From Cyanomargarita calcarea GSE-NOS-MK-12-04C (GTDB lineage Bacteria; Cyanobacteriota; Cyanobacteriia; Cyanobacteriales; Nostocaceae), in contig JAHHGZ010000016.1 of the NCBI GenBank assembly GCA_019359595.1, positions 62,001 to 126,000 of the forward strand: a stretch of 64,000 nt of DNA, given 5' to 3'. The notes under the pieces are model-generated. The model was not told the DNA's origin. It saw only the letters and a list, made by a program, of their open reading frames with translations, and did no database searches. Below, one piece after another: positions 46,250 through 64,000 of the stretch (its first letter is position 1; each line of letters opens with the position of its first letter). The translations under genes were made by a program, and so were the position numbers.

Positions 46250-47071
46250 CTAACAAGTTACAAGGGTTGAAGTCAGACTGAGTTGATATTCTTTTCGCCA
46301 AGATTGGGGAGGTAAACCGTGGTGTTGACGAAACTGCCTTGAGAAGTGACATGCATTTTGATAGCCTAATGATGTCGCAATTTGTGAGATACTTTGGTCT
46401 GTATCGCAGAGTAATGACCGTGCAGCCAGCATCCGCCGTTTAACAATCCAGTTATTAATACTCTCTCCTGTCTGCTTTGCAACTCGGTTGGTTAAGTAGG
46501 CAGCCGAGTAACCAACAGCATCAGCGACATCGCACAGGGTAATACCTTTATCAAAATTGGCTTCAATGTAGTCGAAAATATCTTTCAGCTGGGGAAGTGT
46601 GGGAAAGAATGGCTCGGGTTCTACTGATGTTGTACATACTGATTCTGAGTTGGCATTGCATTTAGCAGTGTACCAATATTCAAAGAGATTTTGCTTGTAC
46701 AGTCGGCTGGCGATCGCTCTCAACAAATCTTCAACGGTAGCGGGTTTGGTGAGATAGTCATCTGCTCCCAATTCCATGCCTTTGCGAAGAGATGCTTTAC
46801 TATCGCAACCTGTGAGAAAGATAAAAGGAATAATCGAAGTCATCGGATATTGACGCAATTCAGTTAAAACACTGTAACCATCCATATCCGGCATCATAAC
46901 ATCGCAAATTACGAGGTCAGGTAAATGCTCTTGGGCTTGACGGATACCAACAAGACCGTTTTCTGCACCTATGGGATCAAAGCCTTCAGCTTCCAGACCA
47001 TCTAAGAAGATGTTGCGAGTAATTGTGTCATCTTCTATGACGAGAATTTTTTTAGACAATTCTTGGATCAT
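46250..47071 (-). CDS. Response regulator with AraC-type output domain (scytonemin-locus regulator)
   Basis: 273 residues. The receiver domain spans about 1-125 with phospho-acceptor Asp57 in LVICDVMMPDMDGYSVL, Thr in FIFLTGCDSKAS and Lys in YLTKPATVEDLL. The C-terminal pair of AraC-type helix-turn-helix motifs reads GYSAAYLTNRVAKQTGESINNWIVKRRM and ISQIATSLGYQNACHFSRQFRQHHGLPP. Its histidine-kinase partner lies upstream on the same strand. By position it matches the two-component pair next to the Nostoc punctiforme scytonemin genes, so control of scy expression by UV or stress is likely. Confidence 0.9.
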   Translation of the reverse strand: MIQELSKKILVIEDDTITRNIFLDGLEAEGFDPIGAENGLVGIRQAQEHLPDLVICDVMMPDMDGYSVLTELRQYPMTSIIPFIFLTGCDSKASLRKGMELGADDYLTKPATVEDLLRAIASRLYKQNLFEYWYTAKCNANSESVCTTSVEPEPFFPTLPQLKDIFDYIEANFDKGITLCDVADAVGYSAAYLTNRVAKQTGESINNWIVKRRMLAARSLLCDTDQSISQIATSLGYQNACHFSRQFRQHHGLPPQSWRKEYQLSLTSTLVTC

Positions 47072-47345
47072 TTTTCGTTATTTGAATGGGTGTGAATAAG
47101 TGAATGCAATTACTAATACTAAGGGCGAGAAATATTAGCGACAAATAGAAATAAACTAGATAGAGTGGTAATTTTTATCTTTCCTTTGCGTTCTTTGTGT
47201 CCTTCGTGGTTAAACATAAATATTTTGTTGAACCACGGAGAACGCAATAGGCGTGAACGCCTTTGGTAGGAGGACGCAAAGAATAAGGGTATTTTAGTTC
47301 CACCAAGACGCAGGCTACTTCTAACTCCTAACTCCTTTTAAACTT

Positions 47346-49271
47346 TCATAAAACATTTGGTAAGGTAATAGTAAACATAGTCCCTATACTAATTTCACTT
47401 TCTACATGAATTTTACCGCCATGTAAGTCCACAAGCATTTTGACAATTGATAATCCCAGCCCGGTACCAGGTATATGATCAACATTACTTCCGCGAGAAA
47501 ATGGGTCAAATATTTGTTGTTGGTCTACTGCCGGAATCCCAATTCCTTTGTCTTTAATTTTAAAAATTGCGTCTTGATTTTCAAAAGTGAGTTCAAATGT
47601 GACAACGCTAGCCGCAGGAGAGTATTTTACCGCATTTGAGAGCAAATTTGTAAGAATATGCTGCAACAATTTTGGATCAACACGAGCGCTTATGCAACTA
47701 GCTTGATTGTCGAAATAAATTATTTTTTGATTGTCCGTCAAAAACTGCATTTGTGCGACAATATCAAAACAAAAGCGAGCTAAATCCAGTTCTCTGGGTT
47801 GACATTCTAATTTTTCGGCTTCTGCTTTACCAAACAATAAAATATCATCTAGCAACTGACTAATTTGTTTAACAGCATCTTGAATTAAGTCTAGATAGGA
47901 GCGATTTTTCTCCTCAGTCCATTGACGACTATTACGTCTGAGCAAATCAGCAGAGAAGGAAACAACATTCAGCGGAGTACGGAATTGATGGCAAAGCATA
48001 GAGACAAAACGTTCTCTGAGTTCGCTAAGTCGTTTTGCTTGATCGAGGGCATGACGAACTTCTGATTCTGCTCGTTTATAGTCGGTGATATCGATTGCTG
48101 TTATCAGTTCGACTGGCTCATTTCCGGTGAAATCCTGCCCTTGGTCAAGTATCCCCACTGTACAAGCTAACCAAGATTCTGTTCCGTTTTTTGTGACAAT
48201 CAACATCTCCTGATATTGACAAAAACTTCCTCCTTCTTGCTTGTGAACCTGCCTGCGCCTTTTATATTTAATTAGTTGGTCAAGATTAAAATTAGATAAT
48301 AGTTCTCTTCTTGTGTATCCCGTGAGGATCTCAGCGGCTGGATTGGCGTAACAAAGATTTTTACCTTGAATTAGGAAAATACTTGCTTCTGTAGTTTCTG
48401 CTAAAGTGCGAAATCTCGCTTCGTTTAATCGCAGTGCTTCTTCAGTTTTACGCGATTCTGTAATATCCCAAATACTCCAAACTCTACCGATAATTTTGTT
48501 ATTTAATCGCTGCGGTTCCGAATAGTGGGCAAAGATTCTGCCATCTTTTAATTCTAATATGTCATAACTCTCGCGATCGCTTTGACTTGGCATCTCCCAA
48601 ACAGCTTCCAGAAAAACTTGCGGCTGTTTGACTTGGCTTTCAAAAAAAACCTTTGCTCTATGACATTTTCTAGATAACTTCACTTCCTTAGGCAGTCGCC
48701 ACATATCTAGAAATCTTTGGTTATAGCAAAGGATTTCTCCCTCAAAGTTGACTGCAAGTATGCCATTAGAAGTACATTCTAAGGTAGAACGTAACAAAGC
48801 AACTGACGCTTCCAGCTCCGACTCTGTTTGTTGCAATTCCTCCTTGATATCTTCCGATTCATCCGCAGCTTTTCTCCGGGCAAACCCACAGCCAAATTTT
48901 ACACCTTGATATTCTACATACGTAATAGTAACGTCTACTATAAATACTCGACCATTTTTTGTTTGGTAACGCGATTTACAGTTCAAAGAACCCTGAGATT
49001 TAATAATTCCCCATTGCTCTAACCAAATATGTGTTAGCAATTCTATATCTATATCGTGCAACGTCATAAAGAGTAATTCCTCACGGGAATACCCAGTCAT
49101 GTTGCAAGTTGCATCGTTAATATAGAGAAATTCTGCGTTTTCTCCTATACAAAAGGCGGCATCTGTTGTTTGATTGATGAGTAACTTTGCAAATTGAAGC
49201 TCATCATCTAGATGTACTTGTGATTGATTTGAGTCAATCAACATAAATTTGTTGAAATTCATAGTTGCCAC
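47346..49271 (-). CDS. PAS-domain sensor histidine kinase (scytonemin-locus sensor)
   Basis: 641 residues and no membrane segment, so a soluble sensor. Three PAS-like modules occur: LINQTTDAAFCIGENAEFLYINDATCNMTGYSREELL near 30-130, LLRSTLECTSNGILAVNFEGEILCYNQRF near 158-270, and RTLAETTEASIFLIQGKNLCYANPAAEILTGYTRREL near 290-400. The HisKA helix has His428 in FVSMLCHQFRTPLNVVSF. The ATPase has NLLSNAVKYSP, KDKGIGIP and GTGLGLSIVKMLVDLHGG. It is divergent from scyA by 842 bases and 274 bases upstream of its regulator. Confidence 0.9.
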   Translation of the reverse strand: MATMNFNKFMLIDSNQSQVHLDDELQFAKLLINQTTDAAFCIGENAEFLYINDATCNMTGYSREELLFMTLHDIDIELLTHIWLEQWGIIKSQGSLNCKSRYQTKNGRVFIVDVTITYVEYQGVKFGCGFARRKAADESEDIKEELQQTESELEASVALLRSTLECTSNGILAVNFEGEILCYNQRFLDMWRLPKEVKLSRKCHRAKVFFESQVKQPQVFLEAVWEMPSQSDRESYDILELKDGRIFAHYSEPQRLNNKIIGRVWSIWDITESRKTEEALRLNEARFRTLAETTEASIFLIQGKNLCYANPAAEILTGYTRRELLSNFNLDQLIKYKRRRQVHKQEGGSFCQYQEMLIVTKNGTESWLACTVGILDQGQDFTGNEPVELITAIDITDYKRAESEVRHALDQAKRLSELRERFVSMLCHQFRTPLNVVSFSADLLRRNSRQWTEEKNRSYLDLIQDAVKQISQLLDDILLFGKAEAEKLECQPRELDLARFCFDIVAQMQFLTDNQKIIYFDNQASCISARVDPKLLQHILTNLLSNAVKYSPAASVVTFELTFENQDAIFKIKDKGIGIPAVDQQQIFDPFSRGSNVDHIPGTGLGLSIVKMLVDLHGGKIHVESEISIGTMFTITLPNVL

Positions 49272-50113
49272 CCATTGCTTTTGACGAACTGCAATAAAAT
49301 CGTTAATAGATTTTTTCTGCTGCGTTTATTCCTTCATTCCTTAAATTTAGATTATCAATATTTTAGTTAACAAAATGTAACTTTACAAAATCTTTAATCT
49401 TTTTAGAATGACTTTTAATTCATATTTACTTCCCTTTCTATCTGAAAACAACAAGATAAGTTTTTGTGATTAGACAATCACCAATGCAGATAGAAGTTAA
49501 ATTATTTCAATTTATTTCTTCATGCATCTAATCATGAAACAATTACATATCGCATCTGTCAAAAGAAATACTGGATATTTATTCCCATTAGTCAAACTTT
49601 TTTTGTCATCTACCCAAAGAAGTAAAAAATGTTAAGTTACATGGTCATTATACATACAAAACCAATATATAAGAAGAATTGTGCGGTGACCTGATTACAC
49701 TCACTGCGCTCCTTTTTTTTCAGTAAGAAAAAAGTATAATATAAAACAAAATGATTGAATGAATAGGTAGTTGCATATCCTAATAACTATCGAAAGGTAG
49801 AAGTTAAAAGAATTTTCATGATGAGCTTTCCAGGCGTCAGGCGCAGCATAACTAAGAGCAAAAAAATAGACAAGCTAATCAAAAGATTATGCATTGCATC
49901 TGCGTATGGGGTTCGGTACTCTTGTTACCAGAAGCACAAGATTTATTGTTTTGCTTGGTAATAAGAATTTATTGTTTGGTATTGAATAAAAAGCCGCAAC
50001 TTACTATTTTTGCTGAACTAGCCGGATCGGAAATTTTACGAAGAGCTCAAGTGTCGCCACGACAACAACGCCAGCTAAATGGCATCCTCTACAAAAATCG
50101 GAAAGTATAACCA
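49272..50113. other. 842-base divergent region upstream of scyA
   Basis: AT-rich DNA between the sensor kinase and scyA, probably carrying both promoters and regulator sites. A 73-codon frame at 49889-50110 ends 3 bases before scyA, but it is unrecognised and has no ribosome-binding site. No clear direct-repeat operator was found by eye. Confidence 0.45.
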
Positions 50114-51931
50114 ATGACTAAAAACTATAGTGCATCGACGACCCCCATTACCACTGAGCCATACCGAGGATTAAAAAAAGACAGCTTTATAGAACATAAA
50201 GCACCTAAGATAAACAACATTCCGCGATCGCTGACAGTTGCGGATGCTATCGCCCAAATGTTGGAAATGTTAGGAATCCGTAATGCCTTCGGGGTTGCGG
50301 GTGGTGCAATGGCGAGTGTTTGGGGGGCTTTGTCGAATAGCGAAATACAGGTACTGAACTTTCGCCATGAAAGCGGAGCAGCATTTGCCGCAGCGGAAGC
50401 CTATTTTGCGAGCAATAATCCTACGGTAGTCTTTACAACAGCCGGACCGGGTATAACGAATGCCCTCACAGGCTTGTTTGCAGCCCGTGGAGAAGGTGCA
50501 AAAGTTATTTTCTTATCAGCTTGCACCTCCGCCGCCCAACGCGGTAAGTGGGCTATTCAAGAAACCAGCACCAACACGTTACCCAGCGACGGAATTTTTA
50601 CCTCCGGAACCCTGTTTAACTATGCAATTACAGTTGAATCTGGGGCACAGTTACCGCAAATATTTCGGAAATTAGCCCTGGGTTTATCGCAACCAGGGGG
50701 ATTTGTGGCGCATTTGAGCGTACCTACCGCCATCCAAACTAGCTTGATGGATAGTATTCCACAACTGGGTGTTGCATATCCAACTTTAGCGCCATGCGAA
50801 CAGGCTATAGCTAAATCTATCGAATTGCTTTCCGAAGGTCCCTTTGCTATTTGGGTGGGGTTTGGTGCCCGTAACGCTGCGAACGAAATTTTGGAATTCG
50901 CAGAGAAAACCGGTGCAGCAGTGATGTGTTCTCCTCGTGGTAAAGGCATCTTTCCTGAAAACCATCCTCAATTTGTTGGTGTCACAGGTTTAGGCGGTCA
51001 TGGTTCTGTCATGACATATATGCAAGAACAAACCCCGTTACGTACACTCGTACTGGGGACAAGACTTGGTGAACCCACATCATTCTGGAGTCCGGCTATG
51101 GTTCCTAGCGGCGGTTTCGTTCATGTAGACTGCGATCCCGAAGTGCCAGGAGTCGCTTATCCATCATCGGAAACCTATCCAGTGCAGTCTGATATTAAAG
51201 CTTACCTGCAAGCCTTGCTGAAGCATTTGCCACAAGACTTTCCTGCTTCAACTGCTTTGAATTTACCTCGTCCTGAACGCGAAGCGGTTCAACCAGCAGT
51301 GAATTCTCTGGTGCGTCCAGAAATATTGATGGAAGCAATTCAGAAAGTCATCGTTGAGGGTAGCGACGCTGTGGTCATGGCAGAGTGTGGAAACTCCTTT
51401 ACATGGTCAACACATCTACTGAGCTTTGCTGATACAAATCGCTATAGAGTGAGTACTGGTGTTGGAGCAATGGGTCATGCAGTCACCGGAGTAGTCGGTG
51501 CGGCACACGCTCGCAATGGTAAGGCTGTAGCTATTGTTGGTGATGGCGCAATGCTGATGAATAATGAAATCAGTACCGCCGTTAAATATCAGATTCCCGC
51601 AGTTTGGATTGTGCTAAATGATTCTCGATACAATATGTGCCATCAGGGCATGAAAATGTTGGGAATGACAGGTGCAGATGCAACTATGCCAGAGACAGAT
51701 TTTGTGATGATTGCATCTGCAATGGGTGCAACAGGTATCCGTGTTGAGCGAGAGTCAGATTTAGAAGCGGTCTTATCCAAAGCGATCGCATCCGATATTC
51801 CATTTGTAATTGATGTGATGATCGATCCCGATCGTCCGGCACCTTCCAAAGGACGCAATCAAGGTTTGGCTGCTCAAGGAGTTAAACAAAATTTATCTGA
51901 AGTTAAGCATATTTCTTTCCCATTAGTTTAA
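50114..51931 (+). CDS. scyA: ScyA, thiamine-diphosphate enzyme of scytonemin biosynthesis
   Basis: ScyA is an acetolactate-synthase-like enzyme that couples indole-3-pyruvate with p-hydroxyphenylpyruvate to a beta-keto acid. The 605-residue protein has the three-domain ThDP fold: IRNAFGVAGGAMASVWGAL and NFRHESGAAFAAAEAYF (catalytic Glu near 86), a central domain (IWVGFGARNAANEILEFAEKTGAAVMCSPRGKGIFPENHP), and the ThDP/Mg motif GDGAMLMNN near 476 with LNDSRYNM at its end. It heads the scy operon, with scyB 185 bases downstream. An ordinary acetolactate synthase is the alternative, but the context settles it. Confidence 0.93.
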   Translation: MTKNYSASTTPITTEPYRGLKKDSFIEHKAPKINNIPRSLTVADAIAQMLEMLGIRNAFGVAGGAMASVWGALSNSEIQVLNFRHESGAAFAAAEAYFASNNPTVVFTTAGPGITNALTGLFAARGEGAKVIFLSACTSAAQRGKWAIQETSTNTLPSDGIFTSGTLFNYAITVESGAQLPQIFRKLALGLSQPGGFVAHLSVPTAIQTSLMDSIPQLGVAYPTLAPCEQAIAKSIELLSEGPFAIWVGFGARNAANEILEFAEKTGAAVMCSPRGKGIFPENHPQFVGVTGLGGHGSVMTYMQEQTPLRTLVLGTRLGEPTSFWSPAMVPSGGFVHVDCDPEVPGVAYPSSETYPVQSDIKAYLQALLKHLPQDFPASTALNLPRPEREAVQPAVNSLVRPEILMEAIQKVIVEGSDAVVMAECGNSFTWSTHLLSFADTNRYRVSTGVGAMGHAVTGVVGAAHARNGKAVAIVGDGAMLMNNEISTAVKYQIPAVWIVLNDSRYNMCHQGMKMLGMTGADATMPETDFVMIASAMGATGIRVERESDLEAVLSKAIASDIPFVIDVMIDPDRPAPSKGRNQGLAAQGVKQNLSEVKHISFPLV

Positions 51932-52116: not shown

Positions 52117-53184
52117 TTGAATCTTTTTGAAACTGTTACAGAAATGGGTCATGAACAAGTGCTTTTTTGTCATGGGAAAGACCCAGACATTAAGGCAATA
52201 ATCGCCATTCACGACACAAGTTTGGGTCCCGCAATGGGAGCAACCAGATTATTACCTTATATAAGTGAAGAAGCCGCTTTAAAAGATGCACTTCGTCTCA
52301 GTCGCGGCATGACATATAAGGCAGCTTGTGCTAATATTCCTGTAGGGGGAGGGAAAGCAGTAATTATTGCCGATCCTGCTAATAAAACTGATGACCTGTT
52401 GAGGGCATACGGACGTTTTGTTAATAACCTCCAAGGACGTTTTATTACAGGTCAAGATGTCAATTTAACCCCGGAAGATGTCAGAACAATCAGCCAAGAA
52501 ACTAATTATGTAGTCGGGGTTGAGGAAAAATCTGGCGGTCCCGCTCCGATAACAGCAAGGGGAGTATTCCTCGGAATCAAAGCTGCTGTAGAATTCAAAA
52601 ACCAAACCCAAAGACTGGATGGCGTAAGAGTTGCTGTGCAAGGTTTGGGCAATGTCGGCAAACATTTATGCCAACTTTTACACGAGGATGGTGCCCAACT
52701 ATTGGTGGCCGATGTCAGTTCAGAAAAAACAGAGGAAGTAAAGCGTTTATTTGGAGCAACAGTTGTTGAGCCAGAAGAAATTTACTCGGTAAACGTTGAT
52801 ATTTTTGCTCCTTGCGCTCTTGGGGGAATTTTAAATAGCGAAACAATTCCTCGCATTCAAGCAGAGATTATTGCTGGATGTGCAAATAATCAGCTTGGTC
52901 AAGAGCAAATACACAGTCATATGTTGCGAGAAAAAGGAATTTTGTATTGCCCAGACTATGTGATAAATGCTGGAGGGCTAATCAACGTTTATAATGAAAT
53001 GATAGGTTATAACGAAGAAAAAGCTTTCAAACAGTTAAATAATATTTACAATACATTGTTGGAGATTTTTGCTAGAGGAGAACAGCAGGAAATTACCACT
53101 AATTTTGCTGCCCAACAATTGGCAGAAGAACGAATTATGAAAGCGAGAAAACTCAAGAATCAGCCGATAGCTGTGAGCTGTTAG
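52117..53184 (+). CDS. scyB: ScyB, tryptophan dehydrogenase of the Leu/Phe dehydrogenase family
   Basis: ScyB oxidatively deaminates tryptophan to indole-3-pyruvate with NAD+. The start is a TTG with TAGGAGA upstream. The 355-residue protein shows DTSLGPAMGATRLLPYISEEAALKDALRLSRGMTYKAACANIPVGGGKAVI (catalytic Lys in GGGK and the preceding MTYK), GRFITGQDVNLTPEDV, and the NAD-binding VAVQGLGNVGKHLCQLLHEDGAQLLVADV, then FAPCALGGILN and YCPDYVINAGGLINVYNEM. All are classic for Glu/Leu/Phe/Val dehydrogenases; the scy context gives the substrate. Confidence 0.94.
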   Translation: MNLFETVTEMGHEQVLFCHGKDPDIKAIIAIHDTSLGPAMGATRLLPYISEEAALKDALRLSRGMTYKAACANIPVGGGKAVIIADPANKTDDLLRAYGRFVNNLQGRFITGQDVNLTPEDVRTISQETNYVVGVEEKSGGPAPITARGVFLGIKAAVEFKNQTQRLDGVRVAVQGLGNVGKHLCQLLHEDGAQLLVADVSSEKTEEVKRLFGATVVEPEEIYSVNVDIFAPCALGGILNSETIPRIQAEIIAGCANNQLGQEQIHSHMLREKGILYCPDYVINAGGLINVYNEMIGYNEEKAFKQLNNIYNTLLEIFARGEQQEITTNFAAQQLAEERIMKARKLKNQPIAVSC

Positions 53185-53581: not shown

Positions 53582-54532
53582 GTGGAAAAAAATACGTTTG
53601 CCACATCTGCCTATATCGCAACTTCACCTCTTAGTGCATTCGACTATCTTCACAGTTTAAAGAACTTAGACGAATGGACGCTCTATAGCCGCATGGTAGA
53701 GCAAATTGACGAAGATACTTGGCTGGGAACTGCATCTGGCTATCAGAAAAAACTCTACTATCACGTCAAGAAATTAGACCACCCGAATTTTTATGGCATT
53801 GAGTGGCATTGCGGATTGGAGTATCAGAAATATTATCAGGTTTACCCTGTCCTTCTTTTTCCTGCCGACTACATCGAGCCTGGAACAGATGAAAAAGGCG
53901 TGTACTTGCATTGGATCAGCTTTGTCGATCCAAAGCGTCGCAGTCCCCTGATCATGGAGGGGATTCACACCGTTCATACTTCCGAGTGTCGTTCTCTCAA
54001 AGGTAATTTAGAACGCAAAGCTGGTCTGACATCTGCAGCCAAAGGTCGTTACTACGTCGAAGCTGACACTATATATGTGAATGCCCCCATATCTATGGGG
54101 ATTGAATATTTGTCTAATCTCCAAAACATGGACGATTGGGCACACTTGCTCAGAGCAGATGGCGAGATTACTGCCAATTCCGGTGAGTTTCGCGATGAAT
54201 ACGATCGCAAAGTAAAAGTTACTCAGCGACTGCAAGCTATGAACCAATCGTACTTGCTAGAGCATGAGTTTTTCTATCCAGAGTACGGATTCTATCAGCG
54301 ATCGCCCGTACTTCTGATCCCAACCTCCCATGCTTTCGGCGATCCGCAAGCTCCTGGATTCATCCAGCACCGAATCACATTTTGGAAAAACGGCGAGCAG
54401 CTACCTCACGGCAAGCTTCAAATTGAAGACTTTGGAGCTGAGAGTATGAACATCAAACGTCTGCTAGAAGCTAAAGCTGGCAACTTTGATACCTTAGCCC
54501 AGGGTTTGAGCTATATGCCAGAGGCTAAATAA
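53582..54532 (+). CDS. scyC: ScyC, scytonemin-precursor cyclase
   Basis: ScyC decarboxylates and cyclises the ScyA product to the tricyclic ketone precursor. The 316-residue protein starts at a GTG. It is built from two similar halves: YIATSPLSAFDYLHSLKNLDEWTLYSRMVEQID in the first and YVNAPISMGIEYLSNLQNMDDWAHLLRADGEI in the second, each followed by a beta-rich part, like tandem START/SRPBCC-type domains. There is no signal peptide, so it acts in the cytosol. Recognised from position and overall match to the scytonemin family. Confidence 0.9.
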   Translation: MEKNTFATSAYIATSPLSAFDYLHSLKNLDEWTLYSRMVEQIDEDTWLGTASGYQKKLYYHVKKLDHPNFYGIEWHCGLEYQKYYQVYPVLLFPADYIEPGTDEKGVYLHWISFVDPKRRSPLIMEGIHTVHTSECRSLKGNLERKAGLTSAAKGRYYVEADTIYVNAPISMGIEYLSNLQNMDDWAHLLRADGEITANSGEFRDEYDRKVKVTQRLQAMNQSYLLEHEFFYPEYGFYQRSPVLLIPTSHAFGDPQAPGFIQHRITFWKNGEQLPHGKLQIEDFGAESMNIKRLLEAKAGNFDTLAQGLSYMPEAK

Positions 54533-54575
54533 AGTTAGGAGTTAGGAGTTAGGAATAAAAGTTTTGAATCAATCT

Positions 54576-55718
54576 ATGAAACTGGAGCAACTTACTATTA
54601 CATCATTGGCAGTACTTGCCGACGGTCTTGATAATCCGAAAGGTCTTAGCTTCGGTTTAGACGGTAGTCTTTATGTCGCAGAAGCCGGAACGGGGGGAGA
54701 TGGGGCTTGTGTTCCATCACCAAGTGGTCAAGGTGATTTGTGCTATGGCGTCAGTGGTGCCATAACACAAATCGAGAATGGTATTGCCAAGCGTGTAATA
54801 ACAGGACTACCTTCCTTAGCATTTCCAGATGGCACAGGAGCTGCGGGTCCTCACGATATCAAATTTGATGTTACGGGCAAGCCTTATGTTCTGATTGGGT
54901 ATGCGACTAATCCAGCCTTACGCGATACCGTATTAGGGAAAACAGATATTGGCAAAATTATTACTACTAATTTAAGTAATAATACTTGGAATATTGTCGG
55001 AGATATAGTTAATTATGAACTTACTAAAAACTCTAAATCAAGTCAGTGTGAAGTTGTCAGTAACCCCTTGTCTTTTTGTATAGATCAAGAGACAATTGTA
55101 TTAGTTGATGCAGGTGCGAACGACCTCATCAGTGTAAAATTAGATGGCAGCGATCTGAAGGTAATTGCTGCACTTCCCAATCAGATATTAACTAATCCAA
55201 TATTCCCCGGTTCTAACTCACAAAACTTTGACCGGGGACACGTACCGCCTCCCAGTGCTTATCATGATGCACCAAAGGTACAGATGGAAATTCAATCAGT
55301 ACCTACAGGTGTTGTCAAAGGTCCAGACGGTGCTTATTATGTCTGCGAATTTACGGGTTTTCCTTTTCCAGAAGGTGGAGCAAAAATCTATCGAATTGGC
55401 GCTGATGGTCAACCCACAGTCTATGCCGATGGTTTTACGCAACTCATCGACTTAACATTCGATGCTGAAGGTAATTTGTATGCTTTACAACATATGAATT
55501 CCTCAGGTTGGAAAGGTAATCCAGATGGTTCGCTGATCAAAATAGCGCCCGATGGTACTTGCACAACTCTCTTAAGCGGTAATGGATTAGAGTCCCCAAC
55601 TGCCCTGACTATCGGGGCTGATAACGCCTTTTATGTCATCAACCGGGGTGGTCGTCCTGGAGTTGGACAAATTCTCAGAATTGAGTATGCAGATACCCTC
55701 AAACCCGCCGTTGGGTAA
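54576..55718 (+). CDS. scyD: ScyD/ScyE family protein (ScyD position), no signal peptide
   Basis: 380 residues from ATG 54576; a TTG four codons earlier is also possible. Six-bladed-propeller-like repeats are visible: LADGLDNPKGLSFGLDGSLYVAEAGTGGDG, GPHDIKFDVTGKPYVLIGYATNPA, VPTGVVKGPDGAYYVCEFTGFPFPEGGAKIYRI, GFTQLIDLTFDAEGNLYALQHMNSSGWKGNPDGSLIKI and LESPTALTIGADNAFYVINRG. Unlike the next gene it has no N-terminal signal and no PEP-CTERM tail, which is odd for a protein expected in the periplasm. TTAGGAGTTAGGA tandem units precede it. Exact function unknown. Confidence 0.85.
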   Translation: MKLEQLTITSLAVLADGLDNPKGLSFGLDGSLYVAEAGTGGDGACVPSPSGQGDLCYGVSGAITQIENGIAKRVITGLPSLAFPDGTGAAGPHDIKFDVTGKPYVLIGYATNPALRDTVLGKTDIGKIITTNLSNNTWNIVGDIVNYELTKNSKSSQCEVVSNPLSFCIDQETIVLVDAGANDLISVKLDGSDLKVIAALPNQILTNPIFPGSNSQNFDRGHVPPPSAYHDAPKVQMEIQSVPTGVVKGPDGAYYVCEFTGFPFPEGGAKIYRIGADGQPTVYADGFTQLIDLTFDAEGNLYALQHMNSSGWKGNPDGSLIKIAPDGTCTTLLSGNGLESPTALTIGADNAFYVINRGGRPGVGQILRIEYADTLKPAVG

Positions 55719-56043: not shown

Positions 56044-57441
56044 ATGAAGCTCAACCAATTTACTCTTACAATTTTTACTCTTTCTATTGCAATTATTACC
56101 GGACAACAAGTTGCCAAAGCTGCTTCATTATCGGTAATTGCTGACGGTCTTGATAACCCACGGAACATGGCATTTGCTCCCGACGGCAGCCTTTATGTAA
56201 CAACCAGTGGTAAAGGTGGTGACGGAGCAGACGGCAGATGTATTCCATCACCCAGCGCTCAATATATTCCTTTATGTGCTGGTGCAAATGGTTCCGTGAT
56301 CAAAATCGGTGCAGACGGTAAGAAAGAAACTTTTCTTGACAGTCTCACCTCCATAGCATTAGTACCCTCTGGGGAACAAGCTGCCGGACCTGCAGATTTT
56401 AAATTTGACTCCAAAGGCAACGCTTATCTTTTGACCGGTGTAGCTGGCGATCCAACAAAACGCGATACCGTGTTAAAGTCTCCCGACCTTGGAAAATTAT
56501 TCAAAGTAGACTTAATCAGCAAAGCGCTGACACCCCTTGCCGATTTTGCCGGGTATGAAGCTCAGTATAATCCTGACGGCACTGACCTAGTTTCCAACCC
56601 TTATGCTTTAGCAATTAAGGATGATAATGCTTTCGTCGTTGATGGCGGCGGAAACACTATCTATAAAGTGGCACTTGATGGCAGCGGTATTAAGGATGTA
56701 AAAGCATTCCCCGTTCTAAACGTACAACTAACTACAGACCAATTCCCAACACTTCCTGAAGGTATAGTAGACCCAACCGGAGGCGCACCATTGCCCCCAG
56801 GTTATACACAAGCTGCCAATGGTCTACCGGTATCTAACCAATCAGTACCGACAGGTATCACACTTGCTCCAGATGGTACTTTCACAGTAAGTGAATACAG
56901 CTATTTCCCCTATCCAGAAGGAGCCGCACGTATTTGGAGTATTGACGAGAATTTGACGACAACAGGGTTTGGTGTTGGCAATTCTCCGGAAAGTGGCAAA
57001 GAGATCGCTAATGGCTTTACACAGCTAACTGGTGTCGCATACGACCCCGAAGGTAGTTTGTATGCCTTGCAACACATCAATACCTCAGAATGGAAAGAAA
57101 TTCAGCAGGGTGGTGTTATCACTGGTGATATCAGCGGTTCAATCTTCAAGATTGCCAAGGATGGTACTCGTTCTACTATCTGGAGCGGTCAAGGGCTAGA
57201 GGCAGCTTCTGGCTTAATTTTCGGACCCGATGGTAATTTATATACTTCAAATCGAGCCAGACTGGCAGGAACAGGACAAGTCATCAAGATCGATCCTAGA
57301 GACTCACGAAAAGTCCCTGAACCTACATCTGCAATAGGTTTGATTGCTCTTGGTGCTGCAGGTGTAACAGCCGCAAAACGCAAGCGCAGAAGCCAAGAAG
57401 AATTGGGTGAAGAGCTGCTAGCTAAGGTAGAAATTCTCTAA
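56044..57441 (+). CDS. scyE: ScyD/ScyE family protein (ScyE position), secreted with PEP-CTERM tail
   Basis: 465 residues, a clear paralog of the upstream gene (shared DGLDNPRNMAFAPDGSLYVTTSGKGGDG, SVPTGITLAPDGTFTVSEYSYFPYPEGAARIWSI, GFTQLTGVAYDPEGSLYALQHINTSEWK and LEAASGLIFGPDGNLYTSNRA). It differs in having a signal peptide (LNQFTLTIFTLSIAIITGQQVAKAA) and a C-terminal VPEPTSAIGLIALGAAGVTAAKRKRRS, the PEP-CTERM sorting signal. It should therefore be exported to the periplasm or cell surface. The role in scytonemin maturation or transport is not resolved. Confidence 0.9.
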   Translation: MKLNQFTLTIFTLSIAIITGQQVAKAASLSVIADGLDNPRNMAFAPDGSLYVTTSGKGGDGADGRCIPSPSAQYIPLCAGANGSVIKIGADGKKETFLDSLTSIALVPSGEQAAGPADFKFDSKGNAYLLTGVAGDPTKRDTVLKSPDLGKLFKVDLISKALTPLADFAGYEAQYNPDGTDLVSNPYALAIKDDNAFVVDGGGNTIYKVALDGSGIKDVKAFPVLNVQLTTDQFPTLPEGIVDPTGGAPLPPGYTQAANGLPVSNQSVPTGITLAPDGTFTVSEYSYFPYPEGAARIWSIDENLTTTGFGVGNSPESGKEIANGFTQLTGVAYDPEGSLYALQHINTSEWKEIQQGGVITGDISGSIFKIAKDGTRSTIWSGQGLEAASGLIFGPDGNLYTSNRARLAGTGQVIKIDPRDSRKVPEPTSAIGLIALGAAGVTAAKRKRRSQEELGEELLAKVEIL

Positions 57442-57591: not shown

Positions 57592-58767
57592 ATGGGATTA
57601 GTCAAAAATCTTTCACTTGCGTTACTAGGTGCTGGCTTCACAGTTGTAGCAACAGCTGCTCAGGCTTTGTCTGTAACATTAAGCTACGATCGCTCAATTG
57701 GTAGCCCTGGTTTCGCACCAGGAGAGTTATTTGTTCCCCAAGGCATAACAGTAGATGACGCTGGGAATACTCTGGTAAGTAACGGTCGCGGTTTGAACCC
57801 AGACGGCACCTTTAACCCGAACATTGGTAACACCGTTAGTGTATTTGACCCCAAAGGTAATTATATTGGGGCAATTGGTAAGGGCGGCAAAGGAGTCGGG
57901 GAGTTTGACGAACCATCAGCGTTAGAAATCTCTCCACTGACTAAAAAACTGTATGTCGGTGATGTTTTCAACAACCGCGTTAACGTCTTCGATCCTCAAG
58001 GTAACTTTATTAAATCCTTTGGGACATTTGGCGGTCTTAAAGAAGGTAGAGCTTTCTTTGGTCCATCGGGTGTGACATTTGACAAAACAGGCAATGTCTA
58101 CATCGGTGATTTTAGCGGTGATAAAATTAATAAATACACTCCTGACGGCGAGTTACTCGGTAGCTTTGGTACTAGTGGCACCGCAGCTGGGCAGTTCCAA
58201 GGACCAGCAGGTCTAAGAATTTCTCCAGTTAGTGGAAATTTCTTTGTGTCTGACCAGTTTAACAATCGTATTCAGGTACTCGATCCAGAAGGTAAACCTC
58301 TGTTGACATTCGGCAAACAAGGTACTGGAGATGGAGAGTTTAATCAGCCAATTGGTCTAGAAGTGGATGAGAACGAGAATATCTATGTAGCTGATTCGAT
58401 CAACAGCCGCGTCCAGGTATTCGATAAAACTGGTAAATTTTTGACTTCATATGGCAAAGCTTCTGCTGCACCACCACCACAACTAGGTGAGCCACCCTTT
58501 GGCAGTCCCCTCGACCTCACTCCAGGCACATTTAACTGGACGGCTGGTACAAGCTATAAAGATGGCAAGCTTTATGTCGGCGATTTCTTCCAAGGTCGCG
58601 TCCAGGTGTTAAACGTAGAAGGCGGAAGTACCAAAGTACCTGAGCCAGCATCATTGTTAGGTTTAGGGTTATTGGGAGTTGTTGCCACTGCAGGTAAATT
58701 GCGGAAAAATCAAAAGCAGAAGGCAGTTGTTAGTTTAGATCGGGAACTGGAAAACACTGCTGTTTAA
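57592..58767 (+). CDS. scyF: ScyF, NHL-repeat protein with signal peptide and PEP-CTERM tail
   Basis: 391 residues. The signal peptide is LSLALLGAGFTVVATAAQALS. At least five NHL repeats follow: FVPQGITVDDAGNTLVSNGRG, FDEPSALEISPLTKKLYVGDVFNNRVNVFDPQGNFI, FFGPSGVTFDKTGNVYIGDFSGDKINKYTPDGELL, FQGPAGLRISPVSGNFFVSDQFNNRIQVLDPEGK and FNQPIGLEVDENENIYVADSINSRVQVFDKTGKFL. The end, VPEPASLLGLGLLGVVATAGKLRKNQ, is a PEP-CTERM signal. Exported; its role is unresolved but it is a fixed member of scytonemin clusters. Confidence 0.92.
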   Translation: MGLVKNLSLALLGAGFTVVATAAQALSVTLSYDRSIGSPGFAPGELFVPQGITVDDAGNTLVSNGRGLNPDGTFNPNIGNTVSVFDPKGNYIGAIGKGGKGVGEFDEPSALEISPLTKKLYVGDVFNNRVNVFDPQGNFIKSFGTFGGLKEGRAFFGPSGVTFDKTGNVYIGDFSGDKINKYTPDGELLGSFGTSGTAAGQFQGPAGLRISPVSGNFFVSDQFNNRIQVLDPEGKPLLTFGKQGTGDGEFNQPIGLEVDENENIYVADSINSRVQVFDKTGKFLTSYGKASAAPPPQLGEPPFGSPLDLTPGTFNWTAGTSYKDGKLYVGDFFQGRVQVLNVEGGSTKVPEPASLLGLGLLGVVATAGKLRKNQKQKAVVSLDRELENTAV

Positions 58768-58818: not shown

Positions 58819-59043
58819 AAGCATACTTCCCCTTTTTATGGCAGGACTGTTTCATCCGATAGCAAAAGTATTATTTGCAAAATTGCTCTACGGTACAAAA
58901 TGTAAGGGATGAATAGTTATCAAATTAATAAATTATCCGTTACATTACATCCGTTTTTTTCCGAGCCAGGGTTTTTTAGGTATAAAAAGGTGTGAAAACA
59001 CACCCGAAGTCTAAACAAACAATAAATTATATTAATCAGCGTG

Positions 59044-59769
59044 ATGTATTCTACAAGATATCTCGAAACAACAGGTGTTACTTACTTACTGCGTGACTGG
59101 CTAACACAACGGGTAAATGCAGAAGCTCTTATCTGGCTCGATGAAAAGCGGGAACTAATATCAAGCGGTGCAAATTTACGAGTGTTTTTTACTGCCTTCA
59201 GTTTAGTGCCGAGCTATACAGGGAAACAGAACCTTGAGCTAGCACCACAAGACTTACAAGCTGCTTCTACGTTGCGAAAAAATTGGTTTCCCGGTCATTG
59301 GACAGTCGATCAGGCCGCTCGCACATTACTGGTACTGGCTTTACCAAAAGATAGCCCTGAGAAATATCTGCATACCTTAGATCAAGTTTTTACAACCGCC
59401 GATATCGGAGAATTGGTAGCGCTGTATCAAGCATTACCACTTCTGCCCGAACCAGAACGCCTGCAAAAGCGAGCTGCTGAGGGAGTCCGCAGTAACATGA
59501 CCGCAGTTTTTAACGCGATCGCTTTAAGAAATCCCTATCCTGCCGAGTATTTTGACAATCTCGCATGGAATCAAATGGTATTGAAGGCTTTGTTTGTTGG
59601 CAGCCCTCTTTTAATTTATGGTCTAGACGCTCGCATGAATCCGGAGTTATTGAGAATGCTTCTCGACTACGCCGATGAACGTAAAGCAGCTTCTCGTCCA
59701 GTATCTCTTGAACTCTGGCGACTTGTGGAAATCGGAGGAGGCGATCTGGAGACATGGAGGAACAATTAG
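59044..59769 (+). CDS. eboA: EboA-domain protein
   Basis: 241 residues from the second of two adjacent starts (GTG 59041, ATG 59044). The helical sequence includes TYLLRDWLTQRVNAEALIWLDEKRELISSGANLRVFFTAFSLVPSYTGKQ, WSVDQAART-like GHWTVDQAARTLLVLALP, and LYQALPLLPEPERLQKRAAEGVRSNMTAVFNAIALRNPYPAEYFDNLAWNQMVLKALFVG, which match EboA proteins. It belongs to the ebo cluster, shown in Nostoc punctiforme to be needed for moving the scytonemin precursor to the periplasm. The biochemical role is unknown. It is 276 bases after scyF. Confidence 0.88.
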   Translation: MYSTRYLETTGVTYLLRDWLTQRVNAEALIWLDEKRELISSGANLRVFFTAFSLVPSYTGKQNLELAPQDLQAASTLRKNWFPGHWTVDQAARTLLVLALPKDSPEKYLHTLDQVFTTADIGELVALYQALPLLPEPERLQKRAAEGVRSNMTAVFNAIALRNPYPAEYFDNLAWNQMVLKALFVGSPLLIYGLDARMNPELLRMLLDYADERKAASRPVSLELWRLVEIGGGDLETWRNN

Positions 59770-59894: not shown

Positions 59895-60800
59895 ATGTTT
59901 ATAGATCCCCATATTCACATGTCCGCCCGCACTACTGACGATTATCTGGCAATGCGTCAGGCGGGTATTGTCGCGGTAATTGAACCAGCTTTCTGGTTCG
60001 GACAACCCCGCACCAATGTAGGCTCTTTTCAAGATTATTTTAGCAGTTTGGTAGGTTGGGAACGCTTCCGGGCTAGCCAGTTAGGCATTAAACATTACTG
60101 CACCATCGGCTTGAATTCCAAAGAAGCGAATAATGAAGCCTTGGCAGAGCAAGTGATGGAATTGTTGCCACTTTATGCTTGTAAAGAGGGAGTAGTCGCC
60201 ATCGGTGAAATTGGCTACGACGACATGAACGAAGCAGAAGACAAGTACTTTCGCCTGCAATTGGAACTAGCAAGAGAACTCAATATGTTGGTGATGATTC
60301 ACACACCACACCGCGACAAAAAAGCAGGCACCAGTCGCAGCATGGATGTCTGCCTTGAACATGGGTTAAAACCATCACAAGTAGTTGTAGACCATAACAA
60401 CGAAGAAACAGTTCAAGAAGTATTAGATAGAGGCTTTTGGGCAGCTTTTACGATTTATCCCCAAACCAAAATGGGGAATGCCCGCATGGTGGAAATTGTC
60501 AGACATTATGGAAGCGATCGCATCATCGTAGACAGTAGCGCCGATTGGGGTATCAGCGACCCCCTCGCAGTTCCAAAAACCGCCCAACTCATGCAAGAAA
60601 GAGGCATTCCAGAAGCCTATATTCGCGACGTTTGCTATCAAAATGCACTCACCGCATACAGTCAAAGCGGTCAAATGCATGAATCAGACTGGCTCAACCC
60701 CCCACTAATCGACCAGCGAGAAGTCTACAGCGGTAATTCTATCCTCAGAGGACAGAAACCTCTGATTGAAAGTCGTCGCGATTACGCATTGATTGAATGA
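59895..60800 (+). CDS. eboB: EboB-type TatD-like metal-dependent hydrolase
   Basis: 301 residues of the amidohydrolase/TatD fold. Metal ligands are visible: MFIDPHIHMSARTTDDY (HxH), VVAIGEIGYDDMNEAEDKYF (Glu), MLVMIHTPHRDKKAGT (His), VVVDHNNEETVQEVL (His) and IIVDSSADWGISDPLAVPKTA (Asp). It follows eboA by 125 bases and lies before eboC. The substrate is unknown. The ebo context separates it from the nuclease-type TatD proteins. Confidence 0.88.
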   Translation: MFIDPHIHMSARTTDDYLAMRQAGIVAVIEPAFWFGQPRTNVGSFQDYFSSLVGWERFRASQLGIKHYCTIGLNSKEANNEALAEQVMELLPLYACKEGVVAIGEIGYDDMNEAEDKYFRLQLELARELNMLVMIHTPHRDKKAGTSRSMDVCLEHGLKPSQVVVDHNNEETVQEVLDRGFWAAFTIYPQTKMGNARMVEIVRHYGSDRIIVDSSADWGISDPLAVPKTAQLMQERGIPEAYIRDVCYQNALTAYSQSGQMHESDWLNPPLIDQREVYSGNSILRGQKPLIESRRDYALIE

Positions 60801-60837: not shown

Positions 60838-60906
60838 TTTCTAACTCTTAACAACTAACTCTTAACAACTAACAACTAACAACTAACAATTAACAACTAA
60901 CAACTT
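60838..60906. repeat. AACAACT-type heptad tandem repeat abutting eboC
   Basis: CAACTAA/AACTCTT units repeat about eight times up to 3 bases before the TTT before the eboC ATG, so no Shine-Dalgarno is present. Similar short tracts occur at 59866-59890 (just before eboB) and 32351-32385. Confidence 0.7.
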
Positions 60907-60909
60907 TTT

Positions 60910-61824
60910 ATGAACACCGCGACTTTCACCTCTGACCGAATATGGGCGTATCTCCAAATAATGCGACCGGCAAACATTGTCACCGCTTGGGCAGATATTC
61001 TCGCTGGATTTGCGGCATCGGGGTCTATCGTTTTGGCGAATCAAGATACTACTAGTTTGGTTTCACTAGGGTGGTTGTTGCTTTCGACTACGGGTTTATA
61101 CGGCGGCGGTGTAGTTTTTAATGATGTATTTGATGCTGAATTAGATGCCGTAGAGCGACCAGAAAGACCAATCCCCAGCGGTAAAGCGTCTCGTGAGGGA
61201 GCAATTATACTAGGAACCCTGCTTTTGAGCGTAAGTATAATATCTGCCTATCAAGTTTCTTGGATAAGCGCTATTCTGGCTTGTGGAGTTGCTTTTTTTG
61301 CCGTTTTTTATGATGCGATCGCCAAACACCACCCTATTTTTGGTCCGTTGAATATGGGGATATGTCGCGGTGGCAATTTATTACTTGGTATTAGTATAAT
61401 GCCCGTAATGGTAGCAGAATATTGGTTCTTGGCTTTGATTCCTATCGTCTACATCGCTGCGATTACCGTTTTGAGTCGGGGCGAAGTTAGTGGAGGTAAA
61501 AGTAGTACAGCAGTCTTAGCTGTGACCCTAATTTTTACAGTTATATTAGGGCTTTGTGGATTGGGATTTTTAAATAATTACCGAATTCTGACAGCATTAC
61601 CATTTGTTATCGTGTTGGCTGTGCGGGTGCTACAACCTTTTATTCAGGCTATGCGCTCACCAAGTCCAGAATATATCCGAGCCGCTGTCAAGGCGGGTGT
61701 TTTATCCCTCATAGTCTTAGATGCTACAATTTCTGCTGGTTTCGCTGGTTTACCATCCGGTTTGCTAGTCTTTAGCCTGCTGCCGATTTCAATGCTACTG
61801 GCACAAATGTTTGCTGTAACTTAA
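60910..61824 (+). CDS. eboC: EboC, UbiA-family prenyltransferase-like membrane protein
   Basis: 304 residues with about eight membrane segments. The UbiA pattern is present: YLQIMRPANIVTAWADILAGFAASG near the start, GLYGGGVVFNDVFDAELDAVERPERPIPSGKASREGA (first Asp-rich motif, NDVFDAELD, and the ERPIPSG signature), and AVFYDAIAKHHPIFGPLNMGICRGGNLLLGIS (second motif). UbiA enzymes attach isoprenoid chains to aromatic acceptors. In ebo clusters the acceptor is not known. It follows eboB by 109 bases. Confidence 0.92.
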   Translation: MNTATFTSDRIWAYLQIMRPANIVTAWADILAGFAASGSIVLANQDTTSLVSLGWLLLSTTGLYGGGVVFNDVFDAELDAVERPERPIPSGKASREGAIILGTLLLSVSIISAYQVSWISAILACGVAFFAVFYDAIAKHHPIFGPLNMGICRGGNLLLGISIMPVMVAEYWFLALIPIVYIAAITVLSRGEVSGGKSSTAVLAVTLIFTVILGLCGLGFLNNYRILTALPFVIVLAVRVLQPFIQAMRSPSPEYIRAAVKAGVLSLIVLDATISAGFAGLPSGLLVFSLLPISMLLAQMFAVT

Positions 61825-62169: not shown

Positions 62170-63441
62170 ATGCACATTTTGATTTATTCCTACAACTATT
62201 ATCCAGAGCCGATTGGGATTGCTCCTTTAATGACCGAACTGGCAGAGGGACTGGTGAAACAAGGTCATGAAGTTAGGGTAATTACGGGTATGCCCAACTA
62301 TCCCCAACGTCAGATTTACGATGAATATCGGGGGAAATGGTACGTTACAGAAGTTCATAATGGCGTTACTATTCAGCGTTGTTATCTCCGGGTAAAATCT
62401 AAACCCAACTTACTCGATAGACTTTTACTGGAGATGAGCTTTGTTTTTACCAGCTTTCCCCAAGCGCTGAAAGGTTGGCGACCCGATGTGATACTTTTAA
62501 CAGTGCCACCACTGCTTGTTTCCCTACCAGCCACTTTACTCGGTTGGTTGTATAACTGTCCAGTAATATTGAATGTGCAAGATATTCTACCAGAAGCAGG
62601 CATACGTGTAGGTTTGATTAGAAATAAGTGGATGATTCACGCTTTAGAAGCTTTAGAAAAATTTGCTTATCGGTCTGCACATACTATTAGTGTAATTAGT
62701 GAAGGGTTTGTAGATAATTTAGTCAATAAGGGTGTTCCAAAAAATAAAATTGTTTGTATTTCAAATTGGGTAAACCTTAATTTTATTCAACCATCCTTAA
62801 AAGAGAACACTTTTCGGACGGTACATCAACTTGATGGCAAATTTGTCGTATTGTACTCCGGTAATATCGCTTTAACACAAGGTTTAGAAACAGTAGTTGA
62901 AGCAGCAGCCAAATTGCGTCATATTCCAGAAATTGTTTTTGCGATCGTCGGTGAATCACAAGCCCTAGAGAGACTACAGAAATATTGTCAGCTATGCGAT
63001 GCAGATAATGTTTTATTGTTACCTTTACAGCCCAGGGAAAAACTACCCCAAATGCTCGCAGCAGCGGATGTCGGTTTAGTAGTGCAAAAGCGGAATGTAA
63101 TTTCTTTTAATATGCCTTCCAAGATACCACTCTTGTTGGCTAGTGGACGTCCAATAATCGCATCAGTACCAGGGAAAGGGACAGCAGCAAAAGCCATCAA
63201 AAAAAGTGGTGGAGGAATCGTTGTTGCACCAGAATCACCCGAGGCTTTAGCCAGTGCAATTATGGACTTATATAAAAATCCTAAAAAAGCAGCTACACTT
63301 GCTCAGAAAGGAAGAGAATTTGCAGTTGAACGCTATTCATTTGAACAAGCGATCGCCCGTTATGAATCTGTATTTGACTCAGCGATTGCTTGCCCAGAAT
63401 CCAGATTGAATGTTGTACCGAAATTTAGTTCTACAGAATGA
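62170..63441 (+). CDS. WcaI-type glycosyltransferase (GT4 family)
   Basis: 423 residues. The N-terminal ILIYSYNYYPEPIGIAPLMTELAEGLVKQGHEVRVITGMPNYP and the C-terminal GT4 domain (VVLYSGNIALTQGLETVVEAAAKL, LLLPLQPREKLPQMLAAADVGLVVQKRNVISFNMPSKIPLLLASGRPIIASV, ending with the EX7E-like GGGIVVAPESPEALASAI) identify a nucleotide-sugar-dependent transferase of the colanic-acid WcaI type. A glycosyltransferase occupies the same position after scyF in the N. punctiforme scytonemin cluster. It may build the exopolysaccharide in which scytonemin accumulates (inference). Confidence 0.9.
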   Translation: MHILIYSYNYYPEPIGIAPLMTELAEGLVKQGHEVRVITGMPNYPQRQIYDEYRGKWYVTEVHNGVTIQRCYLRVKSKPNLLDRLLLEMSFVFTSFPQALKGWRPDVILLTVPPLLVSLPATLLGWLYNCPVILNVQDILPEAGIRVGLIRNKWMIHALEALEKFAYRSAHTISVISEGFVDNLVNKGVPKNKIVCISNWVNLNFIQPSLKENTFRTVHQLDGKFVVLYSGNIALTQGLETVVEAAAKLRHIPEIVFAIVGESQALERLQKYCQLCDADNVLLLPLQPREKLPQMLAAADVGLVVQKRNVISFNMPSKIPLLLASGRPIIASVPGKGTAAKAIKKSGGGIVVAPESPEALASAIMDLYKNPKKAATLAQKGREFAVERYSFEQAIARYESVFDSAIACPESRLNVVPKFSSTE

Positions 63442-63675
63442 GTCCTGAGTTGATAAAAGAGAGATTTAATAGATAATTAAGAAAAGAGTATGTAACTAAA
63501 TACAAAATCTCTGCATTAGGTTTGTAGTAATGTTTTGCTTACTCAAGCGTCCTGTTCGTGCGCAGTAAAGCCAGGTTGCGTTAGTACAGGCAAAAGTATT
63601 CTATTCCCCCCGACCTACAAATTTCTGAGTTTATAAATAACTCTTATTAATTGAAAGCTATTTCAATCAAATATT

Positions 63676-64000
63676 ATGCCTATAATCTCACACAAGCTCA
63701 AACAAACTTGCCAAAACTTAATAGAACAAGTTCGCTTTACCATCTCATCCTTACTAATAGGATCAGAACTGCCAACTTATACCCAAAACTTTAAAAATAG
63801 ATCCCTAAGTTTATTCGATCGGAACATAAGAAAGGATGAAAATCCTTCTTTTAATGAGGACTATTTTGCCAGACCTCAAAAAGTCACCATAATCGGTGGA
63901 AATGGCAGAATGGGGAAATTCTTTAGCGAAGAACTCTCATCCGTCGGTCACAATATTAGTATTCTAGGAAATGATGATTGGAAATCCGCCGATAAACTCT
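63676..64000 (+). CDS. tyrA: Prephenate/arogenate dehydrogenase TyrA, N-terminal part (cut by window edge)
   Basis: About 108 codons from ATG 63676 to the right edge. After about 70 poorly conserved residues the dinucleotide-binding motif KVTIIGGNGRMGKFFSEELSSVGHNISILG appears, typical of TyrA dehydrogenases. TyrA converts prephenate to p-hydroxyphenylpyruvate, one of the two scytonemin precursors, and a tyrA copy is a known member of these clusters. The long N-terminal part could be a divergent chorismate-mutase-like region, as in fused TyrA, but this cannot be shown from the fragment. Confidence 0.85.
   Translation, partial: MPIISHKLKQTCQNLIEQVRFTISSLLIGSELPTYTQNFKNRSLSLFDRNIRKDENPSFNEDYFARPQKVTIIGGNGRMGKFFSEELSSVGHNISILGNDDWKSADKL

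Follow-up and report, generated by a model that had tools for sequence, protein, structure and literature searches.

A scytonemin gene cluster of common type in Cyanomargarita calcarea, with a candidate regulatory element upstream of scyA and a candidate pathway protein

Scytonemin gene clusters have been assigned to three patterns, the most frequent of which has the order regulatory/core/satellite/AAAB (aromatic amino acid) genes; the satellite genes are located elsewhere in Nostoc punctiforme and Chlorogloeopsis (PMC6529634; statements on published work follow, here and below, the available parts of the texts cited). By 2009 the five genes in question had been shown to follow scyF in Anabaena, Lyngbya and Nodularia (PMC2726228); in Nodularia and Scytonema, eboC and eboD are separated by glycosyltransferase, tyrA and dsbA genes (PMC5133447), and a single-operon organisation is given as usual (PMC9796282). 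Mutants of N. punctiforme indicate that ScyABC make the monomer in the cytoplasm and that ScyE is required for the finished pigment (PMC6282210, PMC4870267, PMC12188702); eboA, eboB, eboC, eboE and eboF are each needed for the monomer to reach the periplasm (PMC6282210). Here we analyze a scytonemin locus at the end of a 64,000-nt stretch of the genome of Cyanomargarita calcarea GSE-NOS-MK-12-04C (7.9 Mb, 82 contigs), called the window below: contig JAHHGZ010000016.1, G000:C46:62001-126000. The locus continues in L002, a neighbouring stretch of the same contig that runs past the window end (L002:16466-18235 is G000:C46:140465-142234).

The genome belongs to the Nostocaceae, close to Brasilonema and Scytonema, and its scytonemin locus is complete and of the common type. 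The encoded ScyC shares 84-88% identity with its counterparts in Brasilonema, Scytonema, Tolypothrix campylonemoides and Nostocales cyanobacterium HT-58-2. The original prediction, made from the letters alone, had listed ScyA to ScyF, EboA, EboB, EboC, a glycosyltransferase and TyrA in this order, and NCBIfam and Pfam searches confirmed it (Table 1); the physical linkage of scy and ebo genes was borne out as well, in one run of genes. scyA, scyB and scyC are contiguous, each past its NCBIfam equivalog cut-off, and both regulator genes are divergent from scyA. The identity of the three ebo genes, on which that prediction depended, survived protein searches. EboA and EboC scored past their cut-offs, and EboC is the single strong match in its genome (the second best has E 5.7e-7). 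The best NCBIfam match of EboB is TatD-like at 42.6 bits, under the cut-off of 206; its identity follows from the TatD-like Pfam domain, its place and 74-88% identity to eboB matches of other loci.

The predicted order stood up to tyrA, where the list stopped at the window edge, whereas eboD, eboE, eboF, trp genes and aroG continue in the same direction. The cluster thus holds the complete set eboA-F, in an order that is not unbroken: glycosyltransferase and tyrA sit between eboC and eboD and split the set 3+3. The 3-dehydroquinate synthase-like gene is called eboD here because PMC5133447 treats genes at that place as EboD, for which it finds the synthase name misleading.

We assign a probability of about 0.8 to the following working of the locus. 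As in N. punctiforme, and by homology with it, ScyABC would make the monomer, EboA, EboB, EboC, EboE and EboF would bring it to the periplasm and ScyE would finish the pigment. The adjoining response regulator would activate scyA by predicted binding to a 42-bp element upstream of it; scy, ebo and precursor genes would be transcribed from this element, wholly or partly, and a second copy of the element would drive the repeat-protein genes after aroG. We infer, as the original prediction did, that scy and ebo genes are probably expressed in coordination.

Gene order was compared in 192 genomes of the family, a tool-drawn sample with ScyC in 100 of them. We read 100 scy stretches, from 98 ScyC genomes plus two second copies (the window itself and G187, with a ScyC match in two pieces, were excluded). 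In 87 of them a recognised gene followed scyF, which made the locus scorable; among the 13 others nine had no scyF in the stretch and four ended after scyF. The gene next to scyF was eboA in 55 scorable loci and glycosyltransferase (GT) or tyrA in 32. The former comprised scyF-eboABC-GT (41), scyF-eboABC-tyrA (11) and scyF-eboA with no eboC seen (3), spread over 20 genera besides the window's own; named carriers of scyF-eboABC-GT-tyrA include Brasilonema, Scytonema, Tolypothrix, Iningainema, Calothrix, Hassallia, Spirirestis and a Nostoc sp. All but one of the 32 loci (five genera, 23 of them in group g7) had no eboABC in the stretch; eboD was kept in all 31 of these unlinked scy clusters, and four (group g46) also had an eboF match. 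One locus, L105 (G021), had scyF-glycosyltransferase-tyrA followed by intact eboABCDEF, the sole such order among the 87.

The comparison with other producers, proposed along with the prediction, thus found the linkage widely, and it is therefore not distinctive. Embedded ebo genes had been presented as noteworthy; they are the ordinary, already published state, and the exceptional arrangement is that of the laboratory model, N. punctiforme. The ebo genes do lie elsewhere in N. punctiforme, as had been said: eboABCEF are kept there away from the scy cluster. Consensus scans found 35 promoters (shuffle mean 39.7) and 11 terminators (15.3); as these counts were no higher than in shuffles, we called no operon end from them.

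The element upstream of scyA has a consensus of about CnAAAnAATTGACAn5ATCAAAAGATTtTTCATTGcA. The word TCAAAAGATT was present upstream of scyA in 23 of 32 groups, against at most 5 in block shuffles. A position weight matrix (PWM) built from 25 genus-representative scyA upstreams found a plus-strand site scoring >12 in 97 of 101 scyA upstreams, a non-independent count since the 25 belong to the 101; the four without are from g52, g28, g33 and g17. The site upstream of scyA was the sole one scoring >8 in the 64 kb of the window, and simulated sequence (8 x 64 kb) never exceeded 5. Loci of the repeat gene described below (the GNGNW gene) are independent of the training set: among 20 linked ones fetched, 15 had a site >14, one had 14.0 and four had none >11.

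A fixed pattern with zero mismatches matched 73 of the 192 genomes; 70 of these are among the 100 ScyC genomes and 3 among the 92 that lack ScyC. The reversed control gave two matches in all, and the window's own genome had no match to this pattern. The 124 listed sites comprised 82 upstream of scyA and 9 upstream of the GNGNW gene, 8 of the latter away from scyC; the other 33 lay elsewhere, and loci were read for few of them. In two Brasilonema genomes (G142, G123) sites were 85-100 bp before ScyD/ScyE-family genes with a signal-like start and a PEP-CTERM-like tail. These extra ScyE-family genes (L231, L233; G142:C330, G123:C45) are far from the cluster, with the element before each; a second ScyE-like gene at L231 looks broken. 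In G024 a site was ~215 bp before the GNGNW gene, and the 3 kb read contained no scy gene; the gene upstream is, by eye, a threonine synthase. Seven inexact matches in the window's genome (L220-L226) had matrix scores ≤5 and were set aside as chance, including the best one (C23:301209, one mismatch), inside an ORF (open reading frame) taken by eye for a CRISPR cas gene. Text searches of the literature returned no cyanobacterial title for the core sequence and no paper on such a regulator binding site among the matches listed.

We infer that the element would be part of an activator-dependent promoter served by the divergent regulator. One could suppose instead that it belongs to an RNA leader, or that it is a dispersed repeat found before these genes by chance. 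Most g7 and g46 loci have two to three tandem copies, often spaced by about 125 or 250 bp, which would fit a repeat, as would an unlinked site in G091 (L234) with no gene closely downstream and the 33 sites near neither scyA nor the GNGNW gene. On the other side, leader folding is unexceptional (z -1.13) and Rfam gave no match; the hexamer AAGCAC follows the element by 30-32 bases in 20 of 31 representatives, preceded, by eye, by a TAnTCT-like hexamer; and a looser pattern, written to fit the two sites of the window's genome, has just two zero-mismatch copies in its 7.9 Mb, both in the scytonemin cluster. We consider a leader or chance repeat unlikely. The ebo genes, for their part, could be mere neighbours of the scy genes, in an inherited order without shared control, with a constitutive promoter of their own and a role in a general export or lipid pathway. 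Such a role would agree with ebo operons in genomes without a ScyC match (9 of 40 additional ebo loci: g4, 7; g7, 2), and separate transcription would agree with the spacing, as 273 bp precede eboA and 345 bp the glycosyltransferase gene. The element, moreover, is absent before eboA: the 450 bp upstream contained it in none of 57 embedded and none of 39 satellite loci. However, eboA adjoins scyF in those 20 further genera, and N. punctiforme makes no scytonemin once any one of five ebo genes is deleted (PMC6282210); mere neighbourhood is thus improbable in our view. Since the window's only element >8 precedes scyA and none precedes eboA, the embedded ebo genes have no private copy, which favours coordinated expression.

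Four observations weigh against activation and transcription from the scyA element. Gaps between neighbours from scyF to tyrA amount to 109-345 bp, enough for internal promoters and an argument against a tight single operon; weaker element-like sites occur inside the clusters of some relatives (e.g. L034:19723, score 24.1; L051:17229, 28.0); and the satellite ebo operon, reported as UV-induced in N. punctiforme (PMC5133447), is also without the element before eboA. Finally, in genus g47 scyE is away from the scy locus in three of four genomes (L239, L240, L241; none was found off the locus in G084), and no element was present in the 3.4-4.3 kb loci examined. Membership of the pathway thus does not require the element, and the idea that every off-cluster scytonemin gene carries it was rejected.

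The published reading of the Nostoc satellite (PMC6529634) is transposition: the embedded ebo operon moved elsewhere, and the window would show the state before the move. We fetched 40 extra ebo loci and removed L196 (embedded type, split contig) and L167 (a second copy of another kind), leaving 38 satellites. In the EboC tree (97 rows, FastTree) the 38 satellite rows grouped together (support 100) and 55 embedded Nostocaceae rows did so separately (95); adding L167 left the satellites unsupported as a group. L167 itself (G153:C35) is a second ebo copy beside a complete embedded one; its eboD follows eboABC on the same strand, and its long branch falls outside the two main groups. The tree of EboA, EboB and EboC (48 picked rows, without L167) placed 15 satellites in one clade at 100 and 30 embedded Nostocaceae rows in another at 96 by the Shimodaira-Hasegawa-like approximate likelihood ratio test (SH-aLRT). 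A position of the satellites together with the embedded ebo of the Nostoc side would suit transposition: in the approximately unbiased (AU) test, with constraint groups named after the trees had been seen, satellites forced together with all 14 Nostoc-side embedded rows were not rejected, with a log-likelihood difference (dlnL) of 29.6 and p-AU 0.19 for EboA-E (40 rows, LG+G4) and p 0.24 for EboABC. The claim that satellite ebo necessarily lies outside all embedded Nostocaceae ebo was accordingly not upheld. On the same EboA-E rows, though, satellites forced with the five linked genomes nearest on the Scy tree, i.e. inside the embedded ebo of their own subclade, were rejected (dlnL 137, p-AU 1e-9).

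The eboD genes speak against a move too. A divergent eboD of its own stands beside eboA in 35 of 38 satellite loci (L159, L160 and L189 had none in the stretch, L160 being cut by the contig end), while the eboD kept by the 31 unlinked scy clusters nests among embedded eboD, with the satellites' eboD outside, among the tree parts listed. On the ScyABC tree (47 rows, 13 unlinked) the unlinked state required four changes, three of them forced by well-supported branches. One genome, G148, is apparently caught between the two states: its embedded locus (L093) has open eboA and eboB and an eboD matched over 395 of 398 residues, while eboC and the glycosyltransferase gene are gone, leaving eboB 77 bp before tyrA; a whole satellite operon (L192) is on a different contig from this remnant. 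We therefore doubt the transposition. From these comparisons the Nostoc satellite appears to be a separate and older lineage, one with an eboD of its own, rather than a recent move. We read the separate clades, the divergent eboD, the rejected subclade origin, the repeated unlinking and G148 as the embedded operon having been repeatedly displaced by the older standalone one; a duplication in an ancestor on the Nostoc side is possible.

The second element copy precedes two repeat ORFs, which had no Pfam, NCBIfam or PHROGs family. The product of the longer one, the GNGNW protein, has 589 residues, with about ten GENPFAT units (a 24-bp array, 10.5 copies) and a run of IGNGNW units. With its C-terminal 220 residues as query, and a threshold of E 1e-20 chosen after the match list had been seen, it was present in 79 of the 100 ScyC genomes and in 0 of the 92 without ScyC, a contrast inflated by genome relatedness; 21 ScyC genomes were without it at that threshold. 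Nineteen further genomes had weaker matches, 1e-18 to 1e-3, and 11 of them were without ScyC. One of these, G079 (best match 1.9e-15), also has an exact element site, and its match may be a relic. In nine genera with mixed ScyC content, none of 28 ScyC-less members had the protein, while in eight at least one ScyC member did. In a class-wide search (388 genomes, 1e-12) there were four matches, all with ScyC; the other four of eight ScyC genomes were unmatched.

The place of the gene was compared in 48 of the 79 genomes. It was on the same contig as scyC in 45; in 36 of those it was 10-33 kb downstream on the same strand, often downstream of aroG. Chlorogloea, Chroococcus and Aliterella have the gene between scyF and eboA. 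Inspection by eye showed PEP-CTERM-like tails in nine Nostoc-side and the three outgroup proteins, and none in ten from the window's side (in L217 no GNGNW ORF was read); the NCBIfam PEP-CTERM model matched two of the three outgroup proteins, weakly. By eye no N-terminal signal was seen in these proteins; the PDB gave no sequence match, an AlphaFold2 model from three sequences was unusable (mean predicted local distance difference test score, pLDDT, 36.8), and the string GNGNW retrieved unrelated papers only. One could speculate, with low confidence, that it is a secreted pigment- or sheath-binding protein. Being confined at E 1e-20 to ScyC genomes, it is a candidate for a part in the passage of the pigment across the outer membrane, which the available text of PMC12188702 calls undefined.

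For scyD, dN/dS (nonsynonymous to synonymous rates) of 0.90-1.15 across distant strains has been published, with the suggestion of a pseudogene (PMC4870267). Within six groups of close relatives we obtained, by Nei-Gojobori counting, scyD medians of 0.15-0.26; in the five groups having scyE the scyE medians were 0.14-0.48 (g7 was represented by 10 of 23 loci, g30 by 5 of 7). The scyD medians argue for purifying selection, contrary to the pseudogene reading. In the window, scyD more likely starts at the ATG at 54576, with no N-terminal signal sequence visible by eye; ScyE has, by eye, an N-terminal hydrophobic stretch, and NCBIfam places PEP-CTERM on ScyE and ScyF. By a crude hydrophobicity rule, which left 5 of 92 ScyD and 39 of 87 ScyE rows unscored, ScyD had no hydrophobic N-terminus in 29 of 92 loci, including g12, g6 and g50, near relatives of the window. 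Where it is missing, ScyD may stay in the cytoplasm.

Table 1. Features of the scytonemin locus (positions in the window unless prefixed by L002)
Feature	Position	Strand	Evidence
Response regulator, receiver + AraC-type helix-turn-helix (HTH)	46250..47071	-	Pfam Response_reg 84.1 bits, HTH_18 78.5 bits; same place in named relatives
PAS histidine kinase	47346..49271	-	Pfam HATPase_c, HisKA, PAS
42-bp conserved element	49859..49900	+	PWM score 53.4; by eye then TACTCT and GTTACCAGAAGCACA
scyA	50114..51931	+	NCBIfam NF035923 1121.7 bits, cut-off 1020
scyB	52117..53184	+	NCBIfam NF035922 666.6 bits, cut-off 600
scyC	53582..54532	+	NCBIfam NF035924 599.7 bits, cut-off 400
scyD-type propeller gene	54564..55718	+	NCBIfam NF033206 (ScyD/ScyE family) 380.4 bits, cut-off 80
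scyE	56044..57441	+	NCBIfam NF033206 357.1 bits, cut-off 80; PEP-CTERM tail TIGR02595 22.3 bits, cut-off 16
scyF, NHL propeller + PEP-CTERM tail	57592..58767	+	NCBIfam NF035926 613.6 bits, cut-off 350
eboA	59041..59769	+	NCBIfam NF035937 357.2 bits, cut-off 320
eboB, TatD-like hydrolase	59895..60800	+	Pfam PF01026 TatD_DNase 64.2 bits, above cut-off; place; identity across loci
eboC, UbiA-like membrane protein	60910..61824	+	NCBIfam NF035940 426.9 bits, cut-off 250
Glycosyltransferase	62170..63441	+	NCBIfam WcaI family NF007640 322.6 bits, cut-off 276
tyrA, chorismate mutase/prephenate dehydrogenase	63676..64000, cut by window end; complete L002:1677-2651	+	NCBIfam NF008400 281.6 bits, cut-off 273
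eboD	L002:2789-3985	+	Position, tblastn; NCBIfam NF004852 3-dehydroquinate synthase 610.4 bits
eboE	L002:4197-5435	+	NCBIfam NF035939, 509 bits
eboF	L002:5626-7122	+	Pfam class plus position
trpE	L002:7580-9784	+	
trpC, trpA, trpB	L002, trpE-aroG interval	+	Named from translations
aroG	L002:13484-14548	+	
Second element copy	L002:15273-15314		Score 28.5; 240 bp before first repeat ORF
Repeat ORFs (GNGNW/GENPFAT)	L002:15555-16298 and 16466-18235		After aroG

Directly upstream of the regulators, at 40330-46208, are genes that we take to be xanthine dehydrogenase-like FAD and fused iron-sulphur/molybdopterin subunits, an XdhC-like and a MobA-like gene.

Taken together, we lean towards a scytonemin regulon that could be read from DNA. 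The 42-bp element, probably the site of the adjacent AraC-type regulator, would control the scyA transcript, the GNGNW gene and the extra ScyE-family genes of Brasilonema; the hitherto undescribed GNGNW protein, which in some lineages ends in a PEP-CTERM-like tail, would join the pathway as a new component and might retain pigment in the sheath; and the Nostoc satellite ebo would have displaced the embedded one. The new leads, all comparative, are the element, the GNGNW protein and the age of the satellite ebo. A defined 42-bp site beside a known regulator pair would make the ultraviolet A (UVA) switch directly testable.

Among described systems, the locus resembles the pattern 1 cluster (Garcia-Pichel et al. 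2019, PMC6529634) in the regulatory/core/satellite/aromatic amino acid order, the divergent regulators and the satellite genes directly after scyF in the same direction. It differs from that cluster, as far as the available text describes it, in lacking dsbA and space for trpD. The tyrA-eboD gap (L002:2651-2789, 137 bp) holds no dsbA, nor did a search of the genome, run without a positive control, find one elsewhere, and many relatives have it; the trpB-aroG gap (L002:13060-13484, 423 bp) is too short for trpD, unlike that of many relatives. With the ebo genes of Nodularia spumigena and Scytonema hofmanni (Yurchenko et al. 2016, PMC5133447) the locus shares glycosyltransferase and tyrA between eboC and eboD; the absence of dsbA is the difference seen against the available part of that description. 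With N. punctiforme (Soule et al. 2009, PMC2726228; Klicki et al. 2018, PMC6282210) it shares scyA-F, glycosyltransferase, tyrA, eboD (called 'aroB' there) and the two-component pair: the glycosyltransferase is the positional counterpart of Npun_R1270, the response regulator that of Npun_F1278 and the PAS histidine kinase that of Npun_F1277. eboABC and eboEF, satellite in N. punctiforme, are embedded here.

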